From an uncultured Litoreibacter sp. (GTDB lineage Bacteria > Pseudomonadota > Alphaproteobacteria > Rhodobacterales > Rhodobacteraceae), in NCBI GenBank assembly GCA_947501685.1, contig CANMWQ010000001.1:434001-498000 (forward strand): a stretch of 64,000 nt of DNA, given 5' to 3'. The notes beneath the pieces were generated by a model. It did not search any database. It was not told the DNA's origin and worked only from the letters and a program-made list of their open reading frames with translations. Below, one piece after another: positions 5,267 to 17,418 of the stretch. The position numbers and the translations under genes are program-made. Numbering within the stretch: position 1 is the first letter of the stretch; the number at the start of each line of letters is the position of its first letter.

Positions 5267-5489
5267 AGCTGTTCGTTTTCGGGGTTGCTGAATGCCTCGG
5301 TGGGCGTAAGCGAATTTGCGCAGAAAAATTGCGGGCCCACACCGCCGATAAGCTGGGTGTTGCCGATCCGTCGCATTGAATCAGACGAATTCGCTGGCTT
5401 GCATACTTAATAGGGTTCAGCCGATACTAGGTCTCCTGATATTTTATTGAAAGTCTTTAGGTAGTTGGTTCTATCATGAGGTTATGGGT

Positions 5490-6392
5490 ATGAGCGTTGA
5501 ATTCAGTGATGTTGAACCGTCTGTCGAAGCGGATATTGTCCTAAAGATTGACTACAATGAAGGTTCTTCTTCCGCCGCTCATGCGTTCGAAATCGCAGCC
5601 GAATTAATTCGGTCTATGGAACAACTCGATCAAGTCTTAACTCAATCAATCCATCCTCAACTTTCGACTGCGCTTGTGGTCGAAGACTTACAGAAATCTA
5701 GCCTGAAAATATTTTTAAAGAGCGTGCTAGAGGACGTGCCTGACGAAGCTCTGAAAGATGCAAATATCAAAAAATTGGTTGGGCATTATTTGCTGAAGAG
5801 TAAGTACGCAGCAATCAGGTGGCTCGATAAGAGTGATGACGAACCAAAGCAGATTTCGGATTTAACTACAGAAATTTCTGAATTTGCAAAAGAAACAGAT
5901 CTTCGGCACCTACCAGATTACCCCCCCCCGAATCCGAGCCGACTTGCGCAGCCGTTAGATCGGTTTCAGGAGGCGAAGAAAAAGTTCGACGACAATGAAG
6001 AACTAACAATTACGTTAGGGCCAGACGAGTACAAGGTTCATTTAGATCGTACTTGGGTTCCCTCTGAAACCATAAAAGAAGAAGACGGCGACAGAGAACT
6101 GACCAGTGAGCAAGACCAGTATTTGACGATTGGTCGTCCTGACTTTTTCGGCGAAACAATGTGGTCCTTCAAGCACGGTAAAGTCACTGTAAGGTATCGT
6201 ATTGCCGATCAAGACTGGTTGGATAACTTCCGAGCTGGACAGTACCCGATCAAACCTGGAGATGCGCTTCGTGTTCGAATTAGAGTTAAACATACGTATG
6301 ATGCCAGCGGAAACCTTCTGGAAAGCACCGAAGAAATCGTACGAGTATATTCGATTATCGAGAAGGGCAGCGGTTCAGATCGACTCGTTTAA
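5490..6392 (+). CDS. hypothetical protein, AT-rich orphan
   Basis: I do not recognise this 300-aa protein. It is soluble and acidic, with no signal peptide or membrane segment. Residues 10-115 are mainly helical with many charged residues. A proline-rich link (PDYPPPNPS) lies near residue 145. The last 100 residues look beta-rich, with a segment GKVTVRYRIADQDWLDNF and then R-V-R-I-R-V-K. The ATG at 5490 is preferred because an AGG ribosome site lies eight bases before it; an ATG at 5484 is too close. The gene is clearly AT-richer than lepA upstream and the genes downstream, and it stands alone, which suggests an acquired gene. No function is proposed. Confidence 0.75.
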   Translation: MSVEFSDVEPSVEADIVLKIDYNEGSSSAAHAFEIAAELIRSMEQLDQVLTQSIHPQLSTALVVEDLQKSSLKIFLKSVLEDVPDEALKDANIKKLVGHYLLKSKYAAIRWLDKSDDEPKQISDLTTEISEFAKETDLRHLPDYPPPNPSRLAQPLDRFQEAKKKFDDNEELTITLGPDEYKVHLDRTWVPSETIKEEDGDRELTSEQDQYLTIGRPDFFGETMWSFKHGKVTVRYRIADQDWLDNFRAGQYPIKPGDALRVRIRVKHTYDASGNLLESTEEIVRVYSIIEKGSGSDRLV

Positions 6393-7047: not shown

Positions 7048-7473
7048 AGCAAGGGCGCATGGGGGGGCAGGCGCGGCCCCTTCATGCAAGCGTGCAGGCC
7101 AGCGCGGGCAGAATAGTGAGCAGGACGCCGGAAATTTCGGCCTCCAGCGATTCCCTTCCGGAACGTAGGCATGTTCTCCTATTGTTTCCGCTTTGGAACC
7201 AATAACAGTTATCCCCAAAACCACCCCAAGGAGCGTCCCGCGAGGGTCCCCCCCGACGCCTCGGTCTTCCAACGGCATATGGTGTTGATTTAACACATGA
7301 ACCCCACAGGTTGTGTTGTTTTTGCCGCGGAGCGCGGGTTTTGCGACTATCGAATTCAACTTTTCTCGGCGATGGGAGAACGTGGTTAACGCGAAGATAA
7401 CATTCGCACGAGATACGTGATTGTGTTAACTATAAGGCAACAGACGTGTCCCCTTTCATGAGTGAGGATTAAG
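7048..7473. other. regulatory stretch upstream of the VPLPA-CTERM genes
   Basis: About 425 bases without a convincing gene. Near 7293-7325 there is an imperfect stem (AACAC...AACC / GGTT...GTGTT) followed by a short T-run, which may be a terminator. The sequence just before the next gene is AT-rich and holds a TATAAG hexamer close to 7430, a plausible -10 box, though no convincing -35 box sits at the right distance. Nothing else can be supported. Confidence 0.4.
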
Positions 7474-8100
7474 ATGACCCTGAGTAAATCAATTTTGAGA
7501 GCCGCCGTGCTGCCCGCAGCCGCAGCGCTTATGATGTCCACCGCATCGACCCAAGCGGCCGTTGTTGGCAGCTACGTTTTGGACGTTGAAGGCAGCCTGA
7601 GCTCCGTAGATTTCGGCTCCGCCTACCGCGTGAACAACAATAACAACCGCGTGCGCCACGTGCAAGACGCCTCCTACCGCAACCCAAACCGCCTGTCGAT
7701 CAACAGCAATGCAGCATGGGTTGCCGAACTTGGCGCGACGAGCGGCTCCATGCAGATCGACATCCACGACACGGGCGACGTCAGCTACACAGGCTGCTCG
7801 GGCTTCCTGAGCACCATGTGCAACGGCGCGTTTCAGGCCGCTTATGGTGAGAGCCTGGTCGCCTCGGACGGCTTCAGCTTCCTGTCGGAGCTGAGCGCCA
7901 ACGGCTTTTCCTATGAGGATGACGGAACTTATACTTGGGACATCGGTAACCGCAGCTTCTTCCAAGACACCTATGGCGTCAGCGTGAACTATGACATCTC
8001 CGCCAGCTCGCTGAGCGCGGTGCCGCTGCCTGCGTCCTTGGCCTTCCTGATGGGCGGCTTTGGCCTACTGCTCGGGTTTCGCAAGCGCGCGAACGCCTGA
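7474..8100 (+). CDS. VPLPA-CTERM sorted secreted protein A
   Basis: A 208-aa secreted protein. Residues 1-29 are a signal peptide ending in TASTQAA. The C-terminus has the VPLPA-CTERM signal: VPLPASLAFLMGGFGLLLG, a hydrophobic helix, then the basic RKRANA end. This is the sorting signal recognised by exosortase-type enzymes in Rhodobacterales (the enzyme is not in this window). The middle holds a motif T-G-C-S-G-F-L-S-x2-C-x-G, shared with the next gene, whose two cysteines may form a disulfide. The ATG at 7474 has a GTGAGGA ribosome site; the GTG at 7462 lies in that site. A strong terminator follows at once, so it is a single-gene unit. Confidence 0.88.
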   Translation: MTLSKSILRAAVLPAAAALMMSTASTQAAVVGSYVLDVEGSLSSVDFGSAYRVNNNNNRVRHVQDASYRNPNRLSINSNAAWVAELGATSGSMQIDIHDTGDVSYTGCSGFLSTMCNGAFQAAYGESLVASDGFSFLSELSANGFSYEDDGTYTWDIGNRSFFQDTYGVSVNYDISASSLSAVPLPASLAFLMGGFGLLLGFRKRANA

Positions 8101-8152: not shown

Positions 8153-8301
8153 ATTGGCCGCCGCACAAATACCCTGCCGCGTTAATCATGTTTTAAGATT
8201 CTTCGAGACGCTGCCCTCTGCCATAGCCTACCTTGCCCAGATGCAGTGACCTGTGTGGGGCAGGTCTTGCAATCTGGTTTATTCAGTATGCGAGGTGCGC
8301 C

Positions 8302-8937
8302 ATGACGCGGGTCAAGACAGGTTTGATCGCTATTTCTATCCTTCTCGGCCTCGGGTCTGCCGCCACGGCAACCCCCTTGCAGAGCTTTACGATACGGGCG
8401 GAGGGGCAGTTTTCGAGCCTGTGGTATCCCGGGCTAGCCTCCTATGATCAGGCGTCGTTTCAGTACCTTTCCAGCCGTGAGACCACGTTCTTCGACGCAG
8501 GCGCCGCCGAGTTGGCGACGCATGAACTGTCCGCACAGTTTCAGGCTGTTTCTGGGTCAGCGCATATGCGTGTCAGCGCCCAAGCCGACCCCGCAAACGG
8601 CAATGCCAGCATAACGGGGTGCAGCGGGTTTTTGTCCTTTCTGTGCAGCGGCAGCACGCAAATTTTCGACCTCGCGTCACAAACGATCAGCAGCTTCACC
8701 ACCAATTCGGCAATCACAACCTTGTCTGCGGCGGGGCTGTACCACGGCACTGATCGTGATGCGCACTGGACGTCAGGCAGCACCAGCTTTTTCACCACCG
8801 GCGGCGGGGAGACGGTCGCATTCTCCGTGACCTCGCTCGAGATCGACGTGAGCCCGGTGCCCTTGCCAGCGGGGTTCGCATTCTTGCTTGGCGGTTTGGC
8901 AATGCTTGGGGCGGCGGGTGCAAGGAAGCGTACTTAG
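8302..8937 (+). CDS. VPLPA-CTERM sorted secreted protein B
   Basis: A 211-aa paralogue of the gene upstream. It has an N-terminal signal peptide (residues 1-22), a beta-rich body, the shared T-G-C-S-G-F-L-S-x2-C-x-G motif near the middle, and a C-terminal VPLPAGFAFLLGGLAMLG helix followed by RKRT. The start at 8302 is chosen because the 23 residues added by the open frame at 8233 do not look like protein and would bury the signal peptide. Likely an outer-surface or extracellular matrix protein anchored or released after exosortase processing. The pair probably arose by tandem duplication followed by strong divergence outside the cysteine motif and sorting signal. Confidence 0.85.
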   Translation: MTRVKTGLIAISILLGLGSAATATPLQSFTIRAEGQFSSLWYPGLASYDQASFQYLSSRETTFFDAGAAELATHELSAQFQAVSGSAHMRVSAQADPANGNASITGCSGFLSFLCSGSTQIFDLASQTISSFTTNSAITTLSAAGLYHGTDRDAHWTSGSTSFFTTGGGETVAFSVTSLEIDVSPVPLPAGFAFLLGGLAMLGAAGARKRT

Positions 8938-9106: not shown

Positions 9107-12100
9107 ATGAACGACATCAAACTGCTGCTGACGGGGCTGGGAGTCCCGCAGTACTTTGAAAATTTTAAAGAAAACGACATTGATATCTCGATGATCGCGG
9201 AGCTGACCTCCGAGGATTTGAAAGAAATTGGTGTGACCTCGCTGGGGCACCGCAAGAAGATTCTCTCGGCCTTCAAGGGCGCATCCAGTCCAGCGCAAGA
9301 CGCAGGCGAGGGGGCAGCACAACCGGAGGGCGGCAATCTCGATGAGTGGCCCGACGAATGGGTAGAGCGCCGCGAGGTGACCACCGTTTTCGCGGATCTG
9401 ACCGGCTACACCAGGCTGTCGCGCGAGATGGAGACAGAGGACCTGCACGAGGTGCTCACCGCGTTTTTCGACCGGTTCAACGAGATCGTAACCCGTATGG
9501 GCGGCACCATCGACCGCCATATAGGTGACTGCGTGATGGCCGTGTTCGGCGCGCCTGTCTCACATGGCAATGACGCGGAACGCGCCTTGCGGGCCACCAT
9601 TGAGATGCATCACGCTATGGAAGATGTGGCGCGCCATTTTGGCCGAGATCTCAGCGCGCATATCGGGGCTGCTGCGGGCAATGTGCTGTTCTCTCGCAAG
9701 GGGTACGGCCAGCGCAAGGAGCAGGATTTCACGCTGACCGGGGACACGGTCAATCTGGCGTCCCGGCTGGCGGATCAGGCAAATCCCCGCGAGACGCTGA
9801 TTGACGACCACCTGTTTGCTGCTCTCAGCCATATGATCGCCTGCGACGCCCCGGTCGAGCTGGAGGTGAAGGGTTTTGACAAACCTATTTTGGGCCATCG
9901 CCTTGTCGAGTTTCGCCGCCTTGCGCCAAATCGCGCACTGATTGGCCGAGAGACTGAGATGCAGGTCTTCCGCACCGCGCTTGAGCGCTGCAAGTCAGGC
10001 GGCAATGGCGAAACGCTGTATCTGTCCGCCGATGCGGGCATGGGCAAGTCGCGGCTTTTGCAGGAAATCACAAGCGAAGGCGGGCAGCTGGGCTTTGATT
10101 TCCACTCCACGCTGGTGCTCGATTTTGGCCTTGGCGGCGCGCAGAACCCGATCAATGCGTTGATCGGCAGCCTCTGCGGCCTGAGCGAAAACGCGCATTC
10201 CTCAGCCATCGACGCGGTGGTGGAGCGGCTGACTGAGGACACAACCCTTGACGCTATGTCTGCGCTGTTTCTCCGAGTCATGCTGGGCGCTGAACTGGAG
10301 CGCAGCAAGGCCGCGATTATCGACGCGATGAGTGATGCGTCGCGGATTGAGGGGCAGAACGAAACCGTGCGACGGCTGGTGCGCCACTTCTCGGCCCAGC
10401 AGCCCAAATTGCTGGCCATTGAGGATATCCATTGGGCAGGGAGCACCTTGCTGCCCACCATCCGCACCTTGCAAGAGGAAAGCCAGACCAACCCGGTGGT
10501 GCTGGTCATCACCTCCCGCCCCGAGGGGCCGATCGCCGAGATGGAGATCGCGCCCATCGAAAGCAGCTCGCGCATCCGGCACATGTCTCTGGGCGCGCTG
10601 TCGGGCGAGATGGCATTGGAATTGGCCAACACGTCCCTGCACCCCTCCGCCGATATCGTGCAGCAATGTGTGGAACGCGCCCAAGGCAACCCGCTGTTTC
10701 TGGAGCAGCTTTTGCGCCATACCCGCGACACGGATGACCTGATACCGGGCTCGATCCAAAGCCTCATTCAGGCGCGTTTTGACAGGCTCGCCCCTGTGGA
10801 CCGCCGGGTGCTGCAATGCGCCGCGATCCTTGGGCAACGGTTCTCTCTGGTGGCGGTGACGCAGATCGCGGGGATCGACGTTTATGACGAAAGGCCGCTG
10901 ATCGACGCCTCCCTGATCCGTCAGATTGAAGACGGCTATCTCTTTGATCACGCCCTGATCCGCGAAGCCGTCCTCAGCACCATTTTGCGCAAGGATTTGC
11001 AGGCTCTGCACAGATCGGCCGCCGCGTGGTTCAAACCCCGCGACATCGCGCTGCATGCCGAACATCTGGGCGCGGCCAAAGACGCCGCCGCCGCAGAGGC
11101 CTATCTCGCTGCCGCCCATGATGCACGCGGCAGGTTCCGCAAAGATGCAGCACTTGATTTTGCCGAGAAGGGCATTGCCGCCGCCGCACTCTCTGAGGAC
11201 GCGCAGATGGCGCGCACCCGTGGCCAGCTATTGCGGATCAAGGGCGACATGCTGCGCGAGCTGGGGCAGGGGGAGGCCTCCATCGCTGCCTTCATGGAGG
11301 CCCGCGACGTGGCCGATCTGCCCTGCGACACCTGTTTGGCGCTGATCGGCATGGTCTCCGCGATGCGCATTCTGGACCGCATTGACGAGGCCTTCGCCCT
11401 GCTTGACGAGGCGCAGGCCATTGCCGAGCCGGAGGGCTTCTTGCTGGAGCTGAGCGAAATTCACTACTATCGCGGCAGCCTGCATTTCCCACGTGGCAAC
11501 CTTGATGAATGCCTGGACGATCACACCAGATCGCTGGAGTTCGCCAAACAGGCCGACCGCCCGGAACGTCAGGCGCTGGCGCTGAGCGGATTGGGTGACG
11601 CGCATTACGCACGGGGCCGCATGTTCACCGCCCATAGCGTAATCGAAGAATGCCTGTCGCTCTGCGAAGAACACGGGCTGGGGGCGGCAGAAAGCTCCAA
11701 CCGCTTCATGCTGGCCACGGTGAAGATATACATGAACGAGACCGCCGAGGCGCTGGAACACGCGCAACGCTCCGCCGCACTTGCCGCAGAGGTCGGGTTA
11801 AACCGCCCTGAAATCGTCTCCCGGCTGACGGCGGGCTGGATCCTGACCTCCATGGCGCGCTACGCCGAGGCGCGCGCTGAAATCGAGGCTGGGTTGGCGC
11901 TGGCCGACCAGCTGGGCGCGAAACGTTTCGAGCCGTTCCTTGAAGAAACCCTCGCCCGCATCGAGCTTGCCGAGGGCCACGCTGCCAAAGCCGCCGAGGT
12001 GGCGGAAGGCGCCAAGACCAAGCTGCATGAGGTGGGGGCCGAGACCTTTATCGGCCCGTGGGTTCTGTCCACCGTGGCGCTGACAACACCTGACGCGGAC

Positions 12101-12436
12101 CGGCGCGCGAGCTGTCTGGCTGATGGCGAAGCGCTGCTGGAAAAGGGCTGTGTCGGGCACAATTATTTCCGCTTCTACTGCAACGCGATGGAGGCCTGCC
12201 TGAACGCCTCCGACTGGGCGCAGGCCACGCGCTACGCCGACGCGCTGGCGGCCTACACCGCTGAGGAGCCCACCCCGTGGTCTGACTTCTACATCGCCCG
12301 CACCCGCGCTCTGGTCGCCCGCGCGAAAGGCGACACAGCCGCAGACACAGACATGGGCACAGAGATCACCCGGCTGCGGCAACTGGCCGAAGACAAACAG
12401 CTCTTCGACGCCCTGCCGCTGCTGGCCGACGCGTAG
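9107..12436 (+). CDS. SAM domain - class IIIb adenylate cyclase - AAA ATPase - TPR protein
   Basis: A 1109-aa multidomain signalling enzyme. Residues 3-58 are a SAM protein-interaction domain. Residues 88-270 are a class III nucleotide cyclase: metal-binding Asp97 and Asp141, Asn216 and Arg220 for the transition state, and Thr209 at the adenine-selecting position, the class IIIb hallmark. Arg137 stands where Lys is usual. From about 275 an AAA-type ATPase follows with a Walker A variant (ADAGMGKSR) and LLAIEDIHW as Walker B. The last 450 residues are helical TPR-like repeats. This order resembles soluble, bicarbonate-stimulated cyclases. The cytoplasmic product is probably cAMP. The ATG at 9107 begins the SAM domain. 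Possible effectors lie downstream at 14263 and 14947. Confidence 0.9.
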   Translation: MNDIKLLLTGLGVPQYFENFKENDIDISMIAELTSEDLKEIGVTSLGHRKKILSAFKGASSPAQDAGEGAAQPEGGNLDEWPDEWVERREVTTVFADLTGYTRLSREMETEDLHEVLTAFFDRFNEIVTRMGGTIDRHIGDCVMAVFGAPVSHGNDAERALRATIEMHHAMEDVARHFGRDLSAHIGAAAGNVLFSRKGYGQRKEQDFTLTGDTVNLASRLADQANPRETLIDDHLFAALSHMIACDAPVELEVKGFDKPILGHRLVEFRRLAPNRALIGRETEMQVFRTALERCKSGGNGETLYLSADAGMGKSRLLQEITSEGGQLGFDFHSTLVLDFGLGGAQNPINALIGSLCGLSENAHSSAIDAVVERLTEDTTLDAMSALFLRVMLGAELERSKAAIIDAMSDASRIEGQNETVRRLVRHFSAQQPKLLAIEDIHWAGSTLLPTIRTLQEESQTNPVVLVITSRPEGPIAEMEIAPIESSSRIRHMSLGALSGEMALELANTSLHPSADIVQQCVERAQGNPLFLEQLLRHTRDTDDLIPGSIQSLIQARFDRLAPVDRRVLQCAAILGQRFSLVAVTQIAGIDVYDERPLIDASLIRQIEDGYLFDHALIREAVLSTILRKDLQALHRSAAAWFKPRDIALHAEHLGAAKDAAAAEAYLAAAHDARGRFRKDAALDFAEKGIAAAALSEDAQMARTRGQLLRIKGDMLRELGQGEASIAAFMEARDVADLPCDTCLALIGMVSAMRILDRIDEAFALLDEAQAIAEPEGFLLELSEIHYYRGSLHFPRGNLDECLDDHTRSLEFAKQADRPERQALALSGLGDAHYARGRMFTAHSVIEECLSLCEEHGLGAAESSNRFMLATVKIYMNETAEALEHAQRSAALAAEVGLNRPEIVSRLTAGWILTSMARYAEARAEIEAGLALADQLGAKRFEPFLEETLARIELAEGHAAKAAEVAEGAKTKLHEVGAETFIGPWVLSTVALTTPDADRRASCLADGEALLEKGCVGHNYFRFYCNAMEACLNASDWAQATRYADALAAYTAEEPTPWSDFYIARTRALVARAKGDTAADTDMGTEITRLRQLAEDKQLFDALPLLADA

Positions 12437-12489
12437 AGGACGAACGCAAAAAATGGGCCAAAGAGCCTGACACCAAGGGAGAGAAGACA

Positions 12490-14010
12490 TTGGATAGAAT
12501 TGGCATTATTGGCGGCGGCGTTGGCGGTCTGGCCGTGGCGTGGAACCTCTACCACAAACTGAAAGACGCCGGAATTACCCCCGATATCAATGTGTTCGAG
12601 GCCAATAGCCGCTTTGGCGGCAATGCCGATACCAAGACATTCAACTTTGGCAAAGGGCCGGGCAGCGAGGACAAGGACCTGATCCGCTGGGCCGATATGG
12701 GGGTGAATGATTTCAACATCCCCGCCTATAAAAACATCGTCGAAGTGATGAAACAGATCGGCTACACCAAGGAAAACGGCAACTTCCGCGCCCTTGAGGA
12801 CAGCACCACCTATTACGACACCAAGGGCAACGCCTTTACGGCCAACTCCACCCCCGACGGCAAGCCTGACCCGTGGTGGGGCACGGCGATGCCCGCCGAT
12901 CTTGCATCCTCTGTTGCGGATTTTATGGAGGTCGCTGGCAAGGATTTTACCGACTTCAAATATCACGACTACACGGTCGAGCAATATATCGACGAGATGT
13001 CGCCCAAGCATAAATGGCATCCCGATCTGGGGCCAAAGGTGATCTACCCGCGCATCAACGGCATGTATTTCACCAGCAGCGTCACCGGCCCGCGCGCCAT
13101 GCCGTTTGTGGCCGTCATGCATTACTACCACATCCAGGAAGGCGTCGGCGGCGGCAAGGCTGACCGAAACTACTTCGTCAACGGGTCGAGCACATGGATC
13201 GACGCACTCGTGGCCTATATGGAGAAATGGCCCGGCATGACCCTGCATCTCAACCGCAAGGTCTGGGCCACCCCAAGCGAGACCGGACCGGGCTACGAGG
13301 TCCGCAATGAGACCAAGGACGGCGATACCGACAGGCTCTATTGCCGCTACATTTGTCTCGCCACCCCGGCTGATAGCGCGCTGCAAGTGATGGCCTCCAC
13401 CGGCGCCACAGACCCGGCCACCACGGGACTGCCGCAGCAAGTGTCAAACATCCTGTCACAGGTGAAATACGAGACCGCCGTCAGCGTCGCTCATACCGAC
13501 ACGCGGCTCTTGCCGGTCGAGCGCAACGCATGGAGCACCTATAACATCGTGATCCACGAGCCGGGCAGCGTCGCGCTGAAGCCCTATGTCATCAACTATG
13601 TGGCCAACCGCCACCAAAACGACGCCGCTAACCCCGAGTTCAACAAATTCGGGTCACCTGAGTTCTTCTTGTCGATCAACCCACATATCCCGATCAGCAA
13701 AGACAAGGTGCTGACCGACACCGATGGCAACCCGGCTGTCGCCAACCTGCGCCATTTCGTCTTCGACTTTGACTGCATGACAGCGCAATACCTGATCAAA
13801 TCCTGGCAGGGCAAAAACAACATCTTCTACGCCAGCGGCTGGACCGCCGGATCCGGGCTGCACACCGAATGCTGGACCCAAGGGGAAGACGTCGCTGGCT
13901 GGATCCTCAAAGCCGTGCAATCCGAGGCGGAGGAGGTCGTCCAGGAGCAGACACAAAGCAAGGCCGACTTCATCACCTCCCGCCTGATCGCCGCGGGCGC
14001 GCATAGCTAG
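12490..14010 (+). CDS. FAD-dependent amine-oxidase-like flavoprotein
   Basis: A 506-aa oxidoreductase with an N-terminal Rossmann dinucleotide motif (IGIIGGGVGGLAVAWNL) and a second conserved flavin segment (FEANSRFGGNADT). Near the C-terminus, ASGWTAGSGLHTECWTQG resembles the FAD-closing motif of amine oxidase/NAD-binding Rossmann proteins (COG2907-like). Translation starts at a TTG (12490) preceded by AAGGGAGAGAAG. It lies 53 bases after the cyclase and may be cotranscribed with it. Substrate unknown. No signal peptide is seen. A perfect inverted repeat follows the gene. Confidence 0.85.
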   Translation: MDRIGIIGGGVGGLAVAWNLYHKLKDAGITPDINVFEANSRFGGNADTKTFNFGKGPGSEDKDLIRWADMGVNDFNIPAYKNIVEVMKQIGYTKENGNFRALEDSTTYYDTKGNAFTANSTPDGKPDPWWGTAMPADLASSVADFMEVAGKDFTDFKYHDYTVEQYIDEMSPKHKWHPDLGPKVIYPRINGMYFTSSVTGPRAMPFVAVMHYYHIQEGVGGGKADRNYFVNGSSTWIDALVAYMEKWPGMTLHLNRKVWATPSETGPGYEVRNETKDGDTDRLYCRYICLATPADSALQVMASTGATDPATTGLPQQVSNILSQVKYETAVSVAHTDTRLLPVERNAWSTYNIVIHEPGSVALKPYVINYVANRHQNDAANPEFNKFGSPEFFLSINPHIPISKDKVLTDTDGNPAVANLRHFVFDFDCMTAQYLIKSWQGKNNIFYASGWTAGSGLHTECWTQGEDVAGWILKAVQSEAEEVVQEQTQSKADFITSRLIAAGAHS

Positions 14011-14023
14011 GGCTGTCTTGCGC

Positions 14024-14054
14024 GGCCAGCGCGGAGGGCATCCTCGCGCTGGCC
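14024..14054 (+). terminator. inverted repeat after the flavoprotein gene
   Basis: Perfect 10-bp arms GGCCAGCGCG and CGCGCTGGCC with an 11-base loop, starting 14 bases past the stop codon. There is no T-run, so it could terminate, attenuate or protect the message end rather than act as a classical terminator. Confidence 0.45.
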
Positions 14055-14262
14055 GACCACCTCTGCCCCCCGACCACAAGGCCCAAGCTCAAGATTTTTT
14101 GCAACTTTTTGAGCTGAAACGCGGCAGATGTCGTTTCTGGGCAAGAGAAAGCGCGGCGAAGGCCTTTGGGTCTCGGAACGTGTGGTAATCCACGTGCAAG
14201 AGCGCCGGTCTATGATGGTTGATCATCCGGCATGACAGGGCAGAATTTTAGGAACGGATCGA

Positions 14263-14934
14263 GTGGACTCGCTGAGCTCTTTGGCAATTTCCCCCGGTGG
14301 CATGGTGCTGCTTGCGGCGTTTTTGCAAACGGTTGCCTATCTTTTCCAGAACCAGATCCTGATGCGCGTGCTGCTGCTGATCGGCACATTCTTGTATCTA
14401 TGGTATTATTTCATTGCCGCCGCCGAGCCGCTCTGGGCCGCCATCTACGGCACCGCCGCGATTGCGGCGACCAGCATTTTCGGCTTTGCCGCCTTACTGA
14501 TCGGGCGCTCCAAATGGATCATCCCCACAGCCCATCGCGAAATTTTTGAGCATTTCCCCGGCGTCGAGCCACGCGTGTTTCGCAAACTGATGAAAGCCGC
14601 CCTGATCCGCGACGTGGAAGCCGAAGAGGTGCTGACCGAAATCGGCAAAGCGCCGGACCATCTGTTCTACATCATATCCGGCCACGTCATGGTTGAGAAA
14701 GAGGAGGCCGCGTTTCAGGTGCCCGCGCTGAATTTCATCGGGGAGATCTCGATGCTGCTGGGCAAATCCTCCAAAGCCTCGGCGGCGGTCACGGCCCCGG
14801 CGGGCACCCGGTTGATCGCATGGCCAAGGCCCAAGCTGGAGCGCATCGTGCAAAACGACCCCAAGGCCCGCATCAGTCTGGAGGCGCTGCTGGCCCGTGA
14901 CATGGCCGCCAAACTGGCGCGCAGCCGGGCGTAA
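14263..14934 (+). CDS. Popeye/CRP-like cyclic-nucleotide-binding membrane protein
   Basis: A 223-aa protein starting at a GTG (14263) with an AGGA ribosome site. Three predicted membrane helices (about 12-28, 34-52 and 57-80) are followed by a cyclic-nucleotide-binding fold of about 130 residues with the segment FIGEISMLLG. The usual phosphate-binding Arg in this cassette appears to be Lys (SKASA). Three helices followed by such a domain is the layout of Popeye proteins, which bind cAMP in animals, and of bacterial relatives. It lies downstream of a class III cyclase, so it is a possible membrane receptor for its product. It may also bind nothing, given the Lys. Its 3' end is 12 bases from the convergent SulP gene. 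Confidence 0.75.
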   Translation: MDSLSSLAISPGGMVLLAAFLQTVAYLFQNQILMRVLLLIGTFLYLWYYFIAAAEPLWAAIYGTAAIAATSIFGFAALLIGRSKWIIPTAHREIFEHFPGVEPRVFRKLMKAALIRDVEAEEVLTEIGKAPDHLFYIISGHVMVEKEEAAFQVPALNFIGEISMLLGKSSKASAAVTAPAGTRLIAWPRPKLERIVQNDPKARISLEALLARDMAAKLARSRA

Positions 14935-14946
14935 AGCGGAAGCCCT

Positions 14947-17118
14947 TTACCGATCCGAGACAAAGGCGTTCATCCGCACCACTTTTTCTGCAAGCGTCTG
15001 CGCCAACAGCTTATGCAGCTCCGCGCTGAGCACAGGCTCCGTCGTCGCAAGCGCCTCCATCTGTGCCATGTCCAGCCGGAAGACCTCGCTTGCCCGCTCG
15101 GCCACAATATCGGCGGAGCGGGGCAGGTCGAGATAATAGGCCAGCTCTCCGATAATGGCGCCGTCCACCATCGAACGGACCCGCTTCTTGCGGCCATCCT
15201 GCACCGTAATATAGACGCCCAGCCGCCCGGATTTGAGGAAATAAATGTCCTGACTGGCCTCCCCGGCGGAGATCAGCATATCGCCCTCCGCCAGCGATAC
15301 TTGCGTCATATGGCTTTTCAGCTGCGCAAAACGGGGGCTGTTCCAGTCGCTCTCAGGCTCATGCGCCTCTGTGGCCATCTGCGCCTCTTGGGCCAGCAGG
15401 CTGTTTTCGCAAAACTCAATCGCGGCGTCGGTGTTGTCCCACAGGCGGAACCCGTCGCCGCCATCCAGCTTCATCCCCCAGGCGCGCATCACCCGTTCGG
15501 TCTCCGCGCTGGCGGCCGACATATGCAGCGATACCTTGTAGCGCTGCACCCGCTCAGCCAGCTTCTCAAGCGCCGAACACGCGGCGCTGTCGACGCCGCT
15601 GACATTGGCAAGATCAAGGATCACATAGCTGGGCTTAGTGTTCTGCTTCACCCGGTCGCGCACGGCGTCAATCAGGTCCTCCACCGAGCCGAAGAACAGA
15701 TAGCCCTGCAACTCGAACAGCTGGATACGGGCCGCGTTCAGCCGCAGGACCTCGCCATCATGCATATGCCGGTCCACCGGGCTGCTGCGGCTGCCCGCCG
15801 CCGCATTGTGCTGAATGGGCGGGATGCGCGCATAGCTGAACGCGAACGCGGCCAGCGAAAAGATCAGCCCCGCCACCACCGCCGTCAGGATGCCGATCAT
15901 CGCCGTCGCCACCAGAATTGCCAGCACAATACCCCAATCCGCGCGCGTCATCCGCCTGCGCGTGTTCCAGACCCAATCAATAAGCATGGTGATCCCGATG
16001 AACAGGAGTAGCCCGGCCGCAATAAACGTCGGCACGGCGGCGACAATCTGATTGGCAAAGAAAAAGCCAAGCATCACGGTCACGCAAAACCCGAGCCCCA
16101 CATATTGTGGCTTGGCACCCAATTGGCTGGCCACAGCGGTGGAGCCCGCGGTGATATAGCCCGCAATGCCCCCCATCAGCCCGATGATCACATTGGCCCC
16201 GCCGGTGGAGCGCAGCTCGCTGTTGATATCCACCTCCGTCTGAGTGGCCAGCTCCGCGCCGCCCGTATTGAGCAACATGCCCACCAGATTGACGATCACC
16301 ACAATCGCCAATGTCGGCCCCACAACCAAAACCTGCCCCCAGTCGATCAGCGATAGGCTGTCCAGCGACAAGGTGATTTGCTCGCCCGCGCTTGGCAGCA
16401 AGGGCAAAAACCCACGCTCCCGCGCCACGTCCAGCGGCAGGCCTAGTAGCGCGCAGATACCGTAAAAGGCGAGGATCGCGAGGATCAGCACCGTCAGCAC
16501 CCCGTTCACGCCGGGCCGGAAATGCATTGTGACCAATAAGACCAAAGCCAACCCGCCCGCCAGCAGTAGCGAGGTCAAAATGTCCGGATCCTGCACCTGG
16601 CTGAGAATTTGCCCCATATCGCCCGCATGGATCGAGATCAGGATCGCCGCATAGGCCAGCAGCCACCCTGAGCTGGCCAGAAAACCTGCCGCAACCGGGT
16701 AGGGCAGCACCCTCACCACCCGGCCCAACTTGAAGACACCGACAAGCTGAAACAGCACCCCCGTTGCCAGCGCCGAGACCCCCAGAACGGCCAGCGCGGT
16801 CATGAACTTGGCGTCTCCCGACCCGCTGACGCCCACAACCGCAATCGCCACCGCAGGCGCAAGGATCGAAATCGAGGTGTCCTGCACCATCCCCAGCGCA
16901 CCCTTGATGCCGCTGAACAGCTGCAACGACAGAGCGATGACAAAAGTGCTGAGCAAGAACACCGCCGTGCCGGGGGCCAAGCCGCTGATCAGGCTGCCCG
17001 AAAACACCAAAGTGGCCATCGCGACGCAAAACCCGATCGCGTCCACGCCCAGAACCCCTCCCGCCGCCGTTGACGCCAAAACGCCCGCGGTCTTGGGTTG
17101 CTTTGCGTCATGTTCCAT
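14947..17118 (-). CDS. SulP anion transporter with STAS and cyclic-nucleotide-binding domains
   Basis: A 723-aa inner-membrane transporter. Residues about 25-430 are the SulP/SLC26 membrane domain with many Gly/Ala-rich helices. Residues about 445-565 are a STAS domain (LANVSGVDSAACSALEKL). The last 130 residues are a cyclic-nucleotide-binding domain with an intact cassette (IIGELAYYLDLPRSADIV, conserved Glu and Arg). SulP proteins move sulfate, bicarbonate or other anions with sodium or protons. The fused CNB domain suggests gating by cAMP or cGMP. It converges with the Popeye-like gene and lies near the cyclase, giving a candidate signalling set. The transported anion cannot be told from sequence. 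Confidence 0.88.
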   Translation of the reverse strand: MEHDAKQPKTAGVLASTAAGGVLGVDAIGFCVAMATLVFSGSLISGLAPGTAVFLLSTFVIALSLQLFSGIKGALGMVQDTSISILAPAVAIAVVGVSGSGDAKFMTALAVLGVSALATGVLFQLVGVFKLGRVVRVLPYPVAAGFLASSGWLLAYAAILISIHAGDMGQILSQVQDPDILTSLLLAGGLALVLLVTMHFRPGVNGVLTVLILAILAFYGICALLGLPLDVARERGFLPLLPSAGEQITLSLDSLSLIDWGQVLVVGPTLAIVVIVNLVGMLLNTGGAELATQTEVDINSELRSTGGANVIIGLMGGIAGYITAGSTAVASQLGAKPQYVGLGFCVTVMLGFFFANQIVAAVPTFIAAGLLLFIGITMLIDWVWNTRRRMTRADWGIVLAILVATAMIGILTAVVAGLIFSLAAFAFSYARIPPIQHNAAAGSRSSPVDRHMHDGEVLRLNAARIQLFELQGYLFFGSVEDLIDAVRDRVKQNTKPSYVILDLANVSGVDSAACSALEKLAERVQRYKVSLHMSAASAETERVMRAWGMKLDGGDGFRLWDNTDAAIEFCENSLLAQEAQMATEAHEPESDWNSPRFAQLKSHMTQVSLAEGDMLISAGEASQDIYFLKSGRLGVYITVQDGRKKRVRSMVDGAIIGELAYYLDLPRSADIVAERASEVFRLDMAQMEALATTEPVLSAELHKLLAQTLAEKVVRMNAFVSDR

Positions 17119-17343: not shown

Positions 17344-17418
17344 TGGAGCGGGCGATGAGATTCGAACTCACGACCCTAACCTTGGCAAGGTTATGCTCTA
17401 CCCCTGAGCTACGCCCGC
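17344..17418 (-). tRNA. tRNA-Gly (GCC anticodon)
   Basis: The minus strand folds as a standard 75-nt tRNA. The acceptor arms are GCGGGCG / CGCCCGC, the D arm is GCTC/GAGC, the anticodon stem is TAACC/GGTTA with loop TTGCCAA (anticodon GCC), and the T arm contains TTCGAAT. The CCA end is encoded in the gene. It reads glycine GGC/GGU codons. It stands alone, followed by its own terminator. Confidence 0.96.

Follow-up and report, generated by a model that had tools for sequence, protein, structure and literature searches.

The question raised by this locus is whether a cyclase gene and two genes for cyclic-nucleotide-binding (CNB) proteins, lying together at positions 9107 to 17118 of the 64,000-nucleotide stretch analysed here (the window, from contig CANMWQ010000001.1 of an uncultured Litoreibacter sp.), work as a unit. 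A sequence-only reading had proposed a self-contained circuit made of a class III cyclase, a Popeye-like receptor and a SulP transporter fused to a CNB domain. Open reading frames (ORFs) and Pfam matches placed the three genes and their domains as that reading had them, including the convergent arrangement of the small CNB gene and the SulP-CNB gene, whose stop codons are 12 bp apart; overlooked in the gene set was a flavin adenine dinucleotide (FAD) enzyme gene between the cyclase and the CNB gene, starting 53 bp after the cyclase gene. We consider it probable, with some reserve, that the block is a local cyclic-nucleotide circuit with the SulP transporter as effector. Within the family Rhodobacteraceae, a cyclase next to a SulP-CNB gene recurs far above random placement, and this recurrence in relatives suggests a local transport switch, none of which was found described; no description of a cyclase/SulP-CNB module was recognised in the literature searched (top-ranked results, with subscription journals mostly outside). 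The features of the block are listed below.

9107-12436, + strand: SAM-class III cyclase-AAA_16-TPR protein, 1109 aa (ORF list; Pfam SAM_1, Guanylate_cyc, AAA_16, TPR_12)
about 9371-9880, + strand: class III cyclase domain, within the 9107-12436 ORF
12490-14010, + strand: FAD/amine-oxidase-like oxidoreductase, 506 aa, TTG start (ORF list, Pfam)
14263-14934, + strand: Popeye-family-like membrane CNB protein, 223 aa (ORF list; Pfam cNMP_binding, E 2.5e-8)
about 14281-14505, + strand: three predicted membrane helices of the small CNB protein
about 14608-14859, + strand: CNB domain of the small membrane protein (Pfam)
14947-17118, - strand: SulP/SLC26 transporter-STAS-CNB protein, 723 aa (Pfam Sulfate_transp, STAS and cNMP_binding, the last with E 4e-17)
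15472-15726, - strand: STAS domain of the SulP protein
15046-15300, - strand: CNB domain of the SulP protein
15112-15150, - strand: phosphate-binding cassette GELAYYLDLPRSA, SulP CNB residues 657-669, with Glu658 and Arg667 (compared with the canonical motif of PMC2246266)

A family panel of 295 genomes yielded 16 SulP-CNB matches at E<=1e-60 in 15 genomes, and up to 20 kb (up to about 9 kb on each side) was fetched around each of the 15 non-window loci. A class III cyclase was detected in the fetched stretch at eight of these loci (G263, G149, G007, G174, G248, G011, G082 and G166), as against 0.31 expected by chance (P about 4e-13); with G082 and G166 scored as unlinked, P was 1e-8. Both values refer to a null of random placement, with the expectation calculated from the PF00211 matches per genome, genome size and stretch length. 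The cyclase profile had been built from nine cyclases of these same loci; hence, PF00211 was used as an independent check, and all eight linked cyclases passed its cut-off, that of G082 narrowly (25.1 bits for a cut-off of 21.9). In G174, G248, G263 and G011, the cyclase by the SulP gene was the single PF00211 match of the genome. The sequence-only reading had called for a search for co-occurrence, and this was borne out for the cyclase and SulP-CNB genes within the family but neither for the exact trio of genes nor outside the family panel.

Tight layouts were found at several linked loci. The SulP gene shared 4 bp in L063 and 11 bp in L065 with the gene for a second type of membrane-CNB protein, described below, and in L062 it shared 17 bp with the cyclase gene; these overlaps depend on the ORF starts as called. 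Recurrent further neighbours were FecR, DUF3307 and type I or NHLP-type exporters. A small DUF3307-type protein was encoded near the cyclase or SulP-CNB gene in L060, L062, L063, L065, L050, L097 and L074, with a 4-bp overlap between its gene and the SulP gene in L062; no such gene was observed in the block of the window. This protein may be a further part of the module. NHLP-type or type I secretion genes, with FecR, lay beside the cyclase and SulP-CNB genes in L181 (13339-19979), L180 and L065 (11466-16434).

The relationship of the transporters was examined in a tree built on the membrane and STAS columns, with CNB excluded; left out were L102, L130, L114, L120 and L116 (divergent), duplicates, L182 and rows with <550 matched residues. 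In a clade of 15 (support 99/94), the window was joined by 12 rows from its own family and by rows from two plasmids of Rhizobiaceae (Shinella and Ensifer), and an earlier 41-row tree recovered the same clade (support 97). Two members, L061 and L073, were on contigs too short to judge, leaving 13 informative members, and a clear cyclase was found nearby in 10 of these (the window, L059, L060, L062, L063, L065, L074, L097, L180 and L181). The cyclase of L180, about 8 kb away, was identified by record annotation and those of L074 and L181 by the cyclase profile; L060 and L074 were near-identical. Sub-threshold cyclase domains were present near the Paracoccus locus L069 (20.5 of 21.9 bits) and the Defluviimonas locus L072 (21.5 of 21.9 bits), and L064, whose genome had no PF00211 match, was the single informative member with no nearby cyclase. 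The cyclases of clade members and linked loci differed in kind, with SAM-AAA-TPR, AAA, zinc-ribbon-AAA, CHASE2 and HAMP forms. A constant transporter with exchanged sensor cyclases is the pattern expected if the transporter answers to the cyclase. A scan with a four-row SulP alignment gave seven loci, of which two were on contigs that were too short and three came from genomes already represented (L070 = L061, L071 = L059 and L075 = L060). Among plasmids, seven SulP-CNB records had >=80% covered, and five contexts were viewed: Shinella and Ensifer had a cyclase, Acaryochloris and Gloeothece had no annotated class III cyclase, and the Caballeronia record was unannotated.

The CNB domain of the transporter was as intact as had been claimed, Glu658 and Arg667 both being present in a cassette that fits the canonical cassettes tabulated in PMC2246266. 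Both Glu and Arg were present in 13 of 13 linked transporters whose cassette could be read and in 17 of 27 unlinked ones, a difference (Fisher p 0.016) that is only suggestive as the rows are related. For this count, L072 was taken as linked, L069 was left out as its CNB is on a separate frame, and short-contig and duplicate loci were dropped. The Paracoccus SulP-CNB gene in L069 (9908-12196) is split into two frames (620 and 137 aa) by a frameshift or a sequencing error. Both the SulP and the small CNB domains of the window matched the NCBIfam 'bacteriocin-type transport-associated protein' model below its cut-off.

Membership of the SulP/SLC26 family was evident from Sulfate_transp and STAS domains above cut-off, while subfamily matches were weak (TIGR00815, 73 of 380 bits; BicA, 70 of 880; DauA, 58.5 of 614). 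An AlphaFold2 model of the transporter (pLDDT 81) resembled SLC26Dg and BicA about equally, and in this predicted structure plant, fungal and animal sulfate/anion transporters ranked close behind; hence, no substrate can be named. The yeast protein Vsb1, a SulP transporter with a C-terminal jelly roll, transports cationic amino acids (PMC13160679), and caution is therefore needed in presuming sulfate or bicarbonate to be the substrate.

Several observations weigh against a local circuit. Seven of the 15 family loci had no cyclase within the stretch fetched (G035, both loci of G162, G057, G161, G219 and G175); the genomes of G035 and G162, accounting for three of these loci, had no PF00211 match, and the G175 locus was on a 6.6-kb contig. 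In a class panel of 385 genomes, none of the 20 non-window SulP-CNB loci was linked to a cyclase (0.79 expected), indicating that linkage is a property of one lineage and that the SulP-CNB fusion has no need of a linked cyclase. When eight other contexts were viewed from the 30 cyclase matches in the family panel (L161-L168, from seven genomes, two being on contigs of 9.5 and 12 kb), no SulP-CNB or Popeye-type gene adjoined the cyclase. Linked loci L099 and L102 fell outside the main transporter clade, and the cassette difference was not significant within the family alone (p 0.14). In the window, the SulP-CNB gene is on the strand opposite the cyclase; thus, the block is not one operon. Furthermore, the substrate-Lys position of the cyclase is occupied by Arg137, and the genome contains a second cyclase.

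This second cyclase, which carries a Tll0287-like sensor domain, bears on the claim that the circuit is self-contained. The genome (3.32 Mb, 99% complete) encodes two class III cyclases and four CNB proteins (E<=0.001), two of the four in the block and the other two being Crp/Fnr-type regulators with cassettes that, by reading, have no Arg. The claim gains from the fact that, of the four CNBs, that of SulP alone has both Glu and Arg; it is weakened by the existence of a second cyclase. That cyclase fits an explanation in which the ligand of the SulP CNB comes from a nucleotide pool shared across the cell, the product of the linked cyclase goes to other (Crp-type) receptors and the linkage reflects shared regulation, for example by envelope stress; also consistent with it are the FecR, CHASE2 and secretion genes that recur around the pair in several relatives. 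Against this, both Crp/Fnr-type proteins lack the cassette Arg, so that no other canonical CNB receptor was seen in the genome, and we give pooled signalling of this kind a very slender chance.

The genomic setting of the block raises another possibility. The block occupies a variable slot with the following boundary.

17344-17418, - strand: tRNA-Gly(gcc), boundary of the variable slot holding the block

In the sister genome G137, the left neighbour and the tRNA-Gly are shared and enclose a different 12.9-kb stretch; this stretch (L170:5900-18780) carries a reverse transcriptase/endonuclease gene of the retron Ec67 family (692 bits, cut-off 450). Reading of that stretch also suggested an integrase-like gene and an XRE/ImmA-IrrE-like gene. 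The right flank was within the fetched stretch in 1 of 10 genus loci, so this comparison is no proof of an empty site. Among 20 other genomes of the genus, the window cyclase was matched in one (E<=1e-30) and the Popeye-type protein in three (E<=0.001); G127, the single genus-mate in the family panel, had no SulP-CNB match, SulP-CNB not having been searched genus-wide. Among the 284 other family-panel genomes searched, which include one from the genus, no counterpart of the FAD protein reached E<=1e-20. Chance accumulation of foreign genes in a tRNA-Gly hotspot, with the cyclase and SulP-CNB protein functioning apart, would account for the differing slot content, for the rarity of the cyclase and Popeye-type genes in the genus, for the FAD gene and for the eight cyclase relatives found away from SulP-CNB genes. 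Accident leaves unexplained, however, why the cyclase-SulP pairing recurs elsewhere with different cyclase types and neighbours, and we regard chance accumulation as unlikely.

The nature of the nucleotide was considered from the active site of the cyclase. In class IIIb adenylyl cyclases, the substrate pair is Lys/Thr. The window cyclase has the claimed Thr at the adenine-selecting position, both metal Asps (D97 and D141) and the two late transition-state residues, Asn and Arg; hence, it agrees with class IIIb (sAC/CyaC type) in the metal Asps and the transition-state Asn/Arg and departs from it in the substrate pair, which reads Arg137 and Thr. With the substrate Lys replaced by Arg137, the claim that cyclic AMP (cAMP) is the product was not supported. 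Bicarbonate stimulation, and with it the proposed anion sensing by the cyclase, was likewise unsupported, nothing in these data pointing to it. Across 47 distinct cyclase rows, drawn from the loci collected by that stage, the metal Asps were invariant, gaps aside, and the substrate-Lys position held Lys in 31, Gln in 6, Asn in 5, Arg in 2 and Ser, Glu or a gap in 1 each. The second Arg row was the closest homologue of the window cyclase (G161, 59% identical), so Arg137 alone is no proof of inactivity.

Another explanation on which this active site bears is a Pycsar-like anti-phage module. In it, the AAA-TPR part would sense phage and the cyclase would make a cyclic pyrimidine (or other cyclic nucleoside monophosphate [cNMP]); damage to the membrane would be done by the membrane CNB protein, perhaps aided by the transporter. 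PycC is not known to have SAM, AAA or TPR parts, unlike the window cyclase, and we know of no SulP effector in Pycsar. Pycsar pairs a class III cyclase with either a membrane-bound receptor (PycTM) or a TIR-fused one (PycTIR) (PMC11224242), and the window's class III cyclase and membrane CNB protein are alike in this; Pycsar differs in having no transporter. In the cytidylate cyclase EaPycC, the required Arg142 sits 4 residues before the second metal Asp (PMC11224242), and Arg137, also 4 before that Asp, would correspond to it by offset. PADLOC PycC and TIR-effector models matched the cyclase (PycC, best 64.9 bits) and the membrane CNB protein (TIR effector, 29.8 bits; PycTIR, 25.2 bits), and the presence of a retron Ec67-family defence gene in the same slot of the sister genome keeps the reading alive. 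The PADLOC matches were, however, limited to shared domains, with the FAD gene lying between the cyclase and membrane CNB genes. The CNB of PycTIR binds nucleotide (PMC11224242), whereas the small CNB of the window has no cassette Arg, and the CHASE2-cyclase, FecR, DUF3307 and exporter genes around the transporter in relatives read like envelope signalling. We therefore see only a small chance that the block is a defence module.

The small membrane CNB protein was the third component of the proposed circuit. A search of the organism's own genome with PF04831 (Popeye, POPDC1-3) gave no match at E<=0.001, suggesting that 'Popeye' was a mere resemblance; scanning of relatives overturned this. Scored singly, the window protein matched PF04831 with 14.3 bits (E 0.046, model positions 12-135 of 140), under the cut-off of 28.1. 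All 10 members of the window-type alignment were matched at E<=1, and at least 4 of the 10 exceeded the cut-off (L054, 35.5 bits; L048, 34.4; L050, 29.9; L055, 29.2), with matches spanning nearly the whole model. L047, L049 and L051, as well as the window protein, were under the cut-off; single scores were obtained for 8 of the 10 members, L052 and L053 not being scored singly. As PF04831 matches its relatives, at least four above cut-off, 'Popeye-like' is right at the family level for this protein; the earlier label of a Popeye-like receptor thus stood for the family relationship, the window member itself scoring below the Pfam threshold. Three transmembrane helices are predicted before the CNB-fold domain, as in Popeye proteins. 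In the alignment of the 10 members, the motif stretch was mostly F-x-G-E, and the literal POPDC motifs DSPE and FQVT (PMC6562197) were absent. The Popeye domain has been called unique to POPDC proteins (PMC6562197), the biochemical activity of the family is described as poorly understood (PMC8706714), and POPDC reviews, in the portions available, name bacterial CRP as the nearest relative. A POPDC entry appeared neither in the best 50 rows of Foldseek and VIA nor in the best 60 of 187 rows of a sequence search of solved structures, results that are uninformative either way, and a plasmid search with two Popeye-type proteins gave nothing at E<=1e-5.

In the cassette region of the small protein, GEISMLLGKSSKASA, the G-E is retained and the Arg is replaced. 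The Arg was missing at the aligned position in all 20 distinct rows, window included, with 3 having an Arg one place earlier (membrane-CNB profile matches at E<=1e-30; 21 rows, one duplicate removed); the cNMP binding ascribed to this domain was, therefore, not supported. Two types of membrane-CNB protein were found across the loci, and PF04831 did not match the four second-type proteins (L059, L063, L065 and L056). A cyclase was nearby at 3 of the 9 other window-type matches at E<=1e-20 (L047-L055; 0.15 expected, P 1e-4) and, among 11 weaker matches with context (L056-L058 and L104-L111), only at L104; two more weak matches were left without context (G118, on a 3.2-kb contig, and G139:C1). 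The Popeye-type gene accompanied a cyclase in L050, L053 and L054, SulP-CNB being absent from the fetched stretch, while SulP-CNB and cyclase genes accompanied the second-type gene in L059, L063 and L065. Conservation of the exact trio was not observed: Popeye-type, SulP-CNB and cyclase genes were seen together in the window alone among the loci fetched. A CNB protein near the L102 cyclase was dropped from the trio count, being a Crp-type regulator. In a genus-mate (G129, L056:2260-10985), the second-type gene lies by that of an acetoacetate-decarboxylase-like protein (under the Pfam cut-off), and the neighbourhood also encodes an epimerase, a polyprenyl synthase and an FAD protein. This FAD protein shares 39% identity with the FAD-ADC protein encoded next to the L062 cyclase, and the gene set points to a possible link to a lipid or terpenoid pathway.

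In the circuit that we favour, the cyclase would be a cytosolic STAND-like sensor (SAM, AAA and TPR) that becomes active when its AAA-TPR part meets a cue. The nucleotide made, most likely cAMP, would bind to the C-terminal, canonical CNB of the SulP-STAS transporter, and transport would change, probably because inhibition of the membrane domain is either lifted or imposed. As its CNB has no phosphate-binding Arg, the small protein is likelier to be a scaffold or co-regulator than a second canonical receptor, and it could hold the cyclase and transporter together at the membrane. Cyclase activity, product, nucleotide binding, gating and its sign, and the scaffold role are all inferred here. 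The best-known bacterial use of cAMP is transcription through Crp; if the circuit exists, a SulP/SLC26 transporter would instead be gated directly by a cyclic nucleotide made next door. The circuit would then serve as a compact model of cAMP-gated transporters, SLC9C1 among them, and would open the Popeye family to study in bacteria.

Resemblances to this circuit can be found in known systems. The TREK-1 channel is not known to carry a CNB domain itself, and AC9 belongs to the membrane cyclases, both differences from the window system; the Synechococcus elongatus SulP nitrate transporter LtnT is latent until its C-terminal domain is removed, and we know of no class III cyclase linked to it. 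LtnT is alike in having a C-terminal jelly-roll domain (PMC13160679). In the POPDC1-AC9-TREK-1 system, a Popeye protein joins a cyclase and a channel, and channel release is cAMP-dependent (PMC9724675). A stronger proposal, which we hold as doubtful, is that the bacterial Popeye protein is a membrane scaffold through which a SulP transporter gated by cyclic nucleotide is coupled to a class III cyclase. The assembly would be a counterpart, and perhaps an ancestor, of the POPDC1-AC9-TREK-1 complex found in the animal heart, and would belong to a wider undescribed class of SulP-CNB transporters coupled to exchangeable sensor cyclases. In sperm, SLC9C1 (sNHE) and sAC likewise place a CNB-bearing transporter alongside a soluble class III cyclase; sea urchin SLC9C1 is up-regulated by cAMP, and sNHE and sAC interact (PMC6660944). 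SLC9C1 differs in being an animal Na+/H+ exchanger with a voltage sensor rather than a SulP protein, and sAC in having two catalytic domains versus the one Guanylate_cyc stretch of the window cyclase.

The FAD gene was tried as a core part of the module and rejected, as it had no counterpart at E<=1e-20 in the 284 other family genomes and showed weak similarity (E 0.001) to the FAD-ADC protein beside the L062 cyclase. In L062, L059 and L056, flavin enzymes are encoded in the vicinity of cyclase or CNB genes; these are not closely related to the window FAD protein, which is probably a passenger or local add-on. Just before the cyclase gene, 7462-8100 and 8233-8937 encode two secreted-looking proteins with VPLPA-type C-terminal sorting signals; the 8233-8937 protein scored 20.3 of 25.35 bits with TIGR03370, and the PEP-CTERM match of the 7462-8100 protein was weak. 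The sister genome G137 has the 7462-8100 gene (DNA match) and, by reading, a counterpart of the 8233-8937 gene. Downstream of lepA, 5484-6392 encodes a member of the LAPAL motif putative phage structural protein family (NF053583, 104 bits, cut-off 60).

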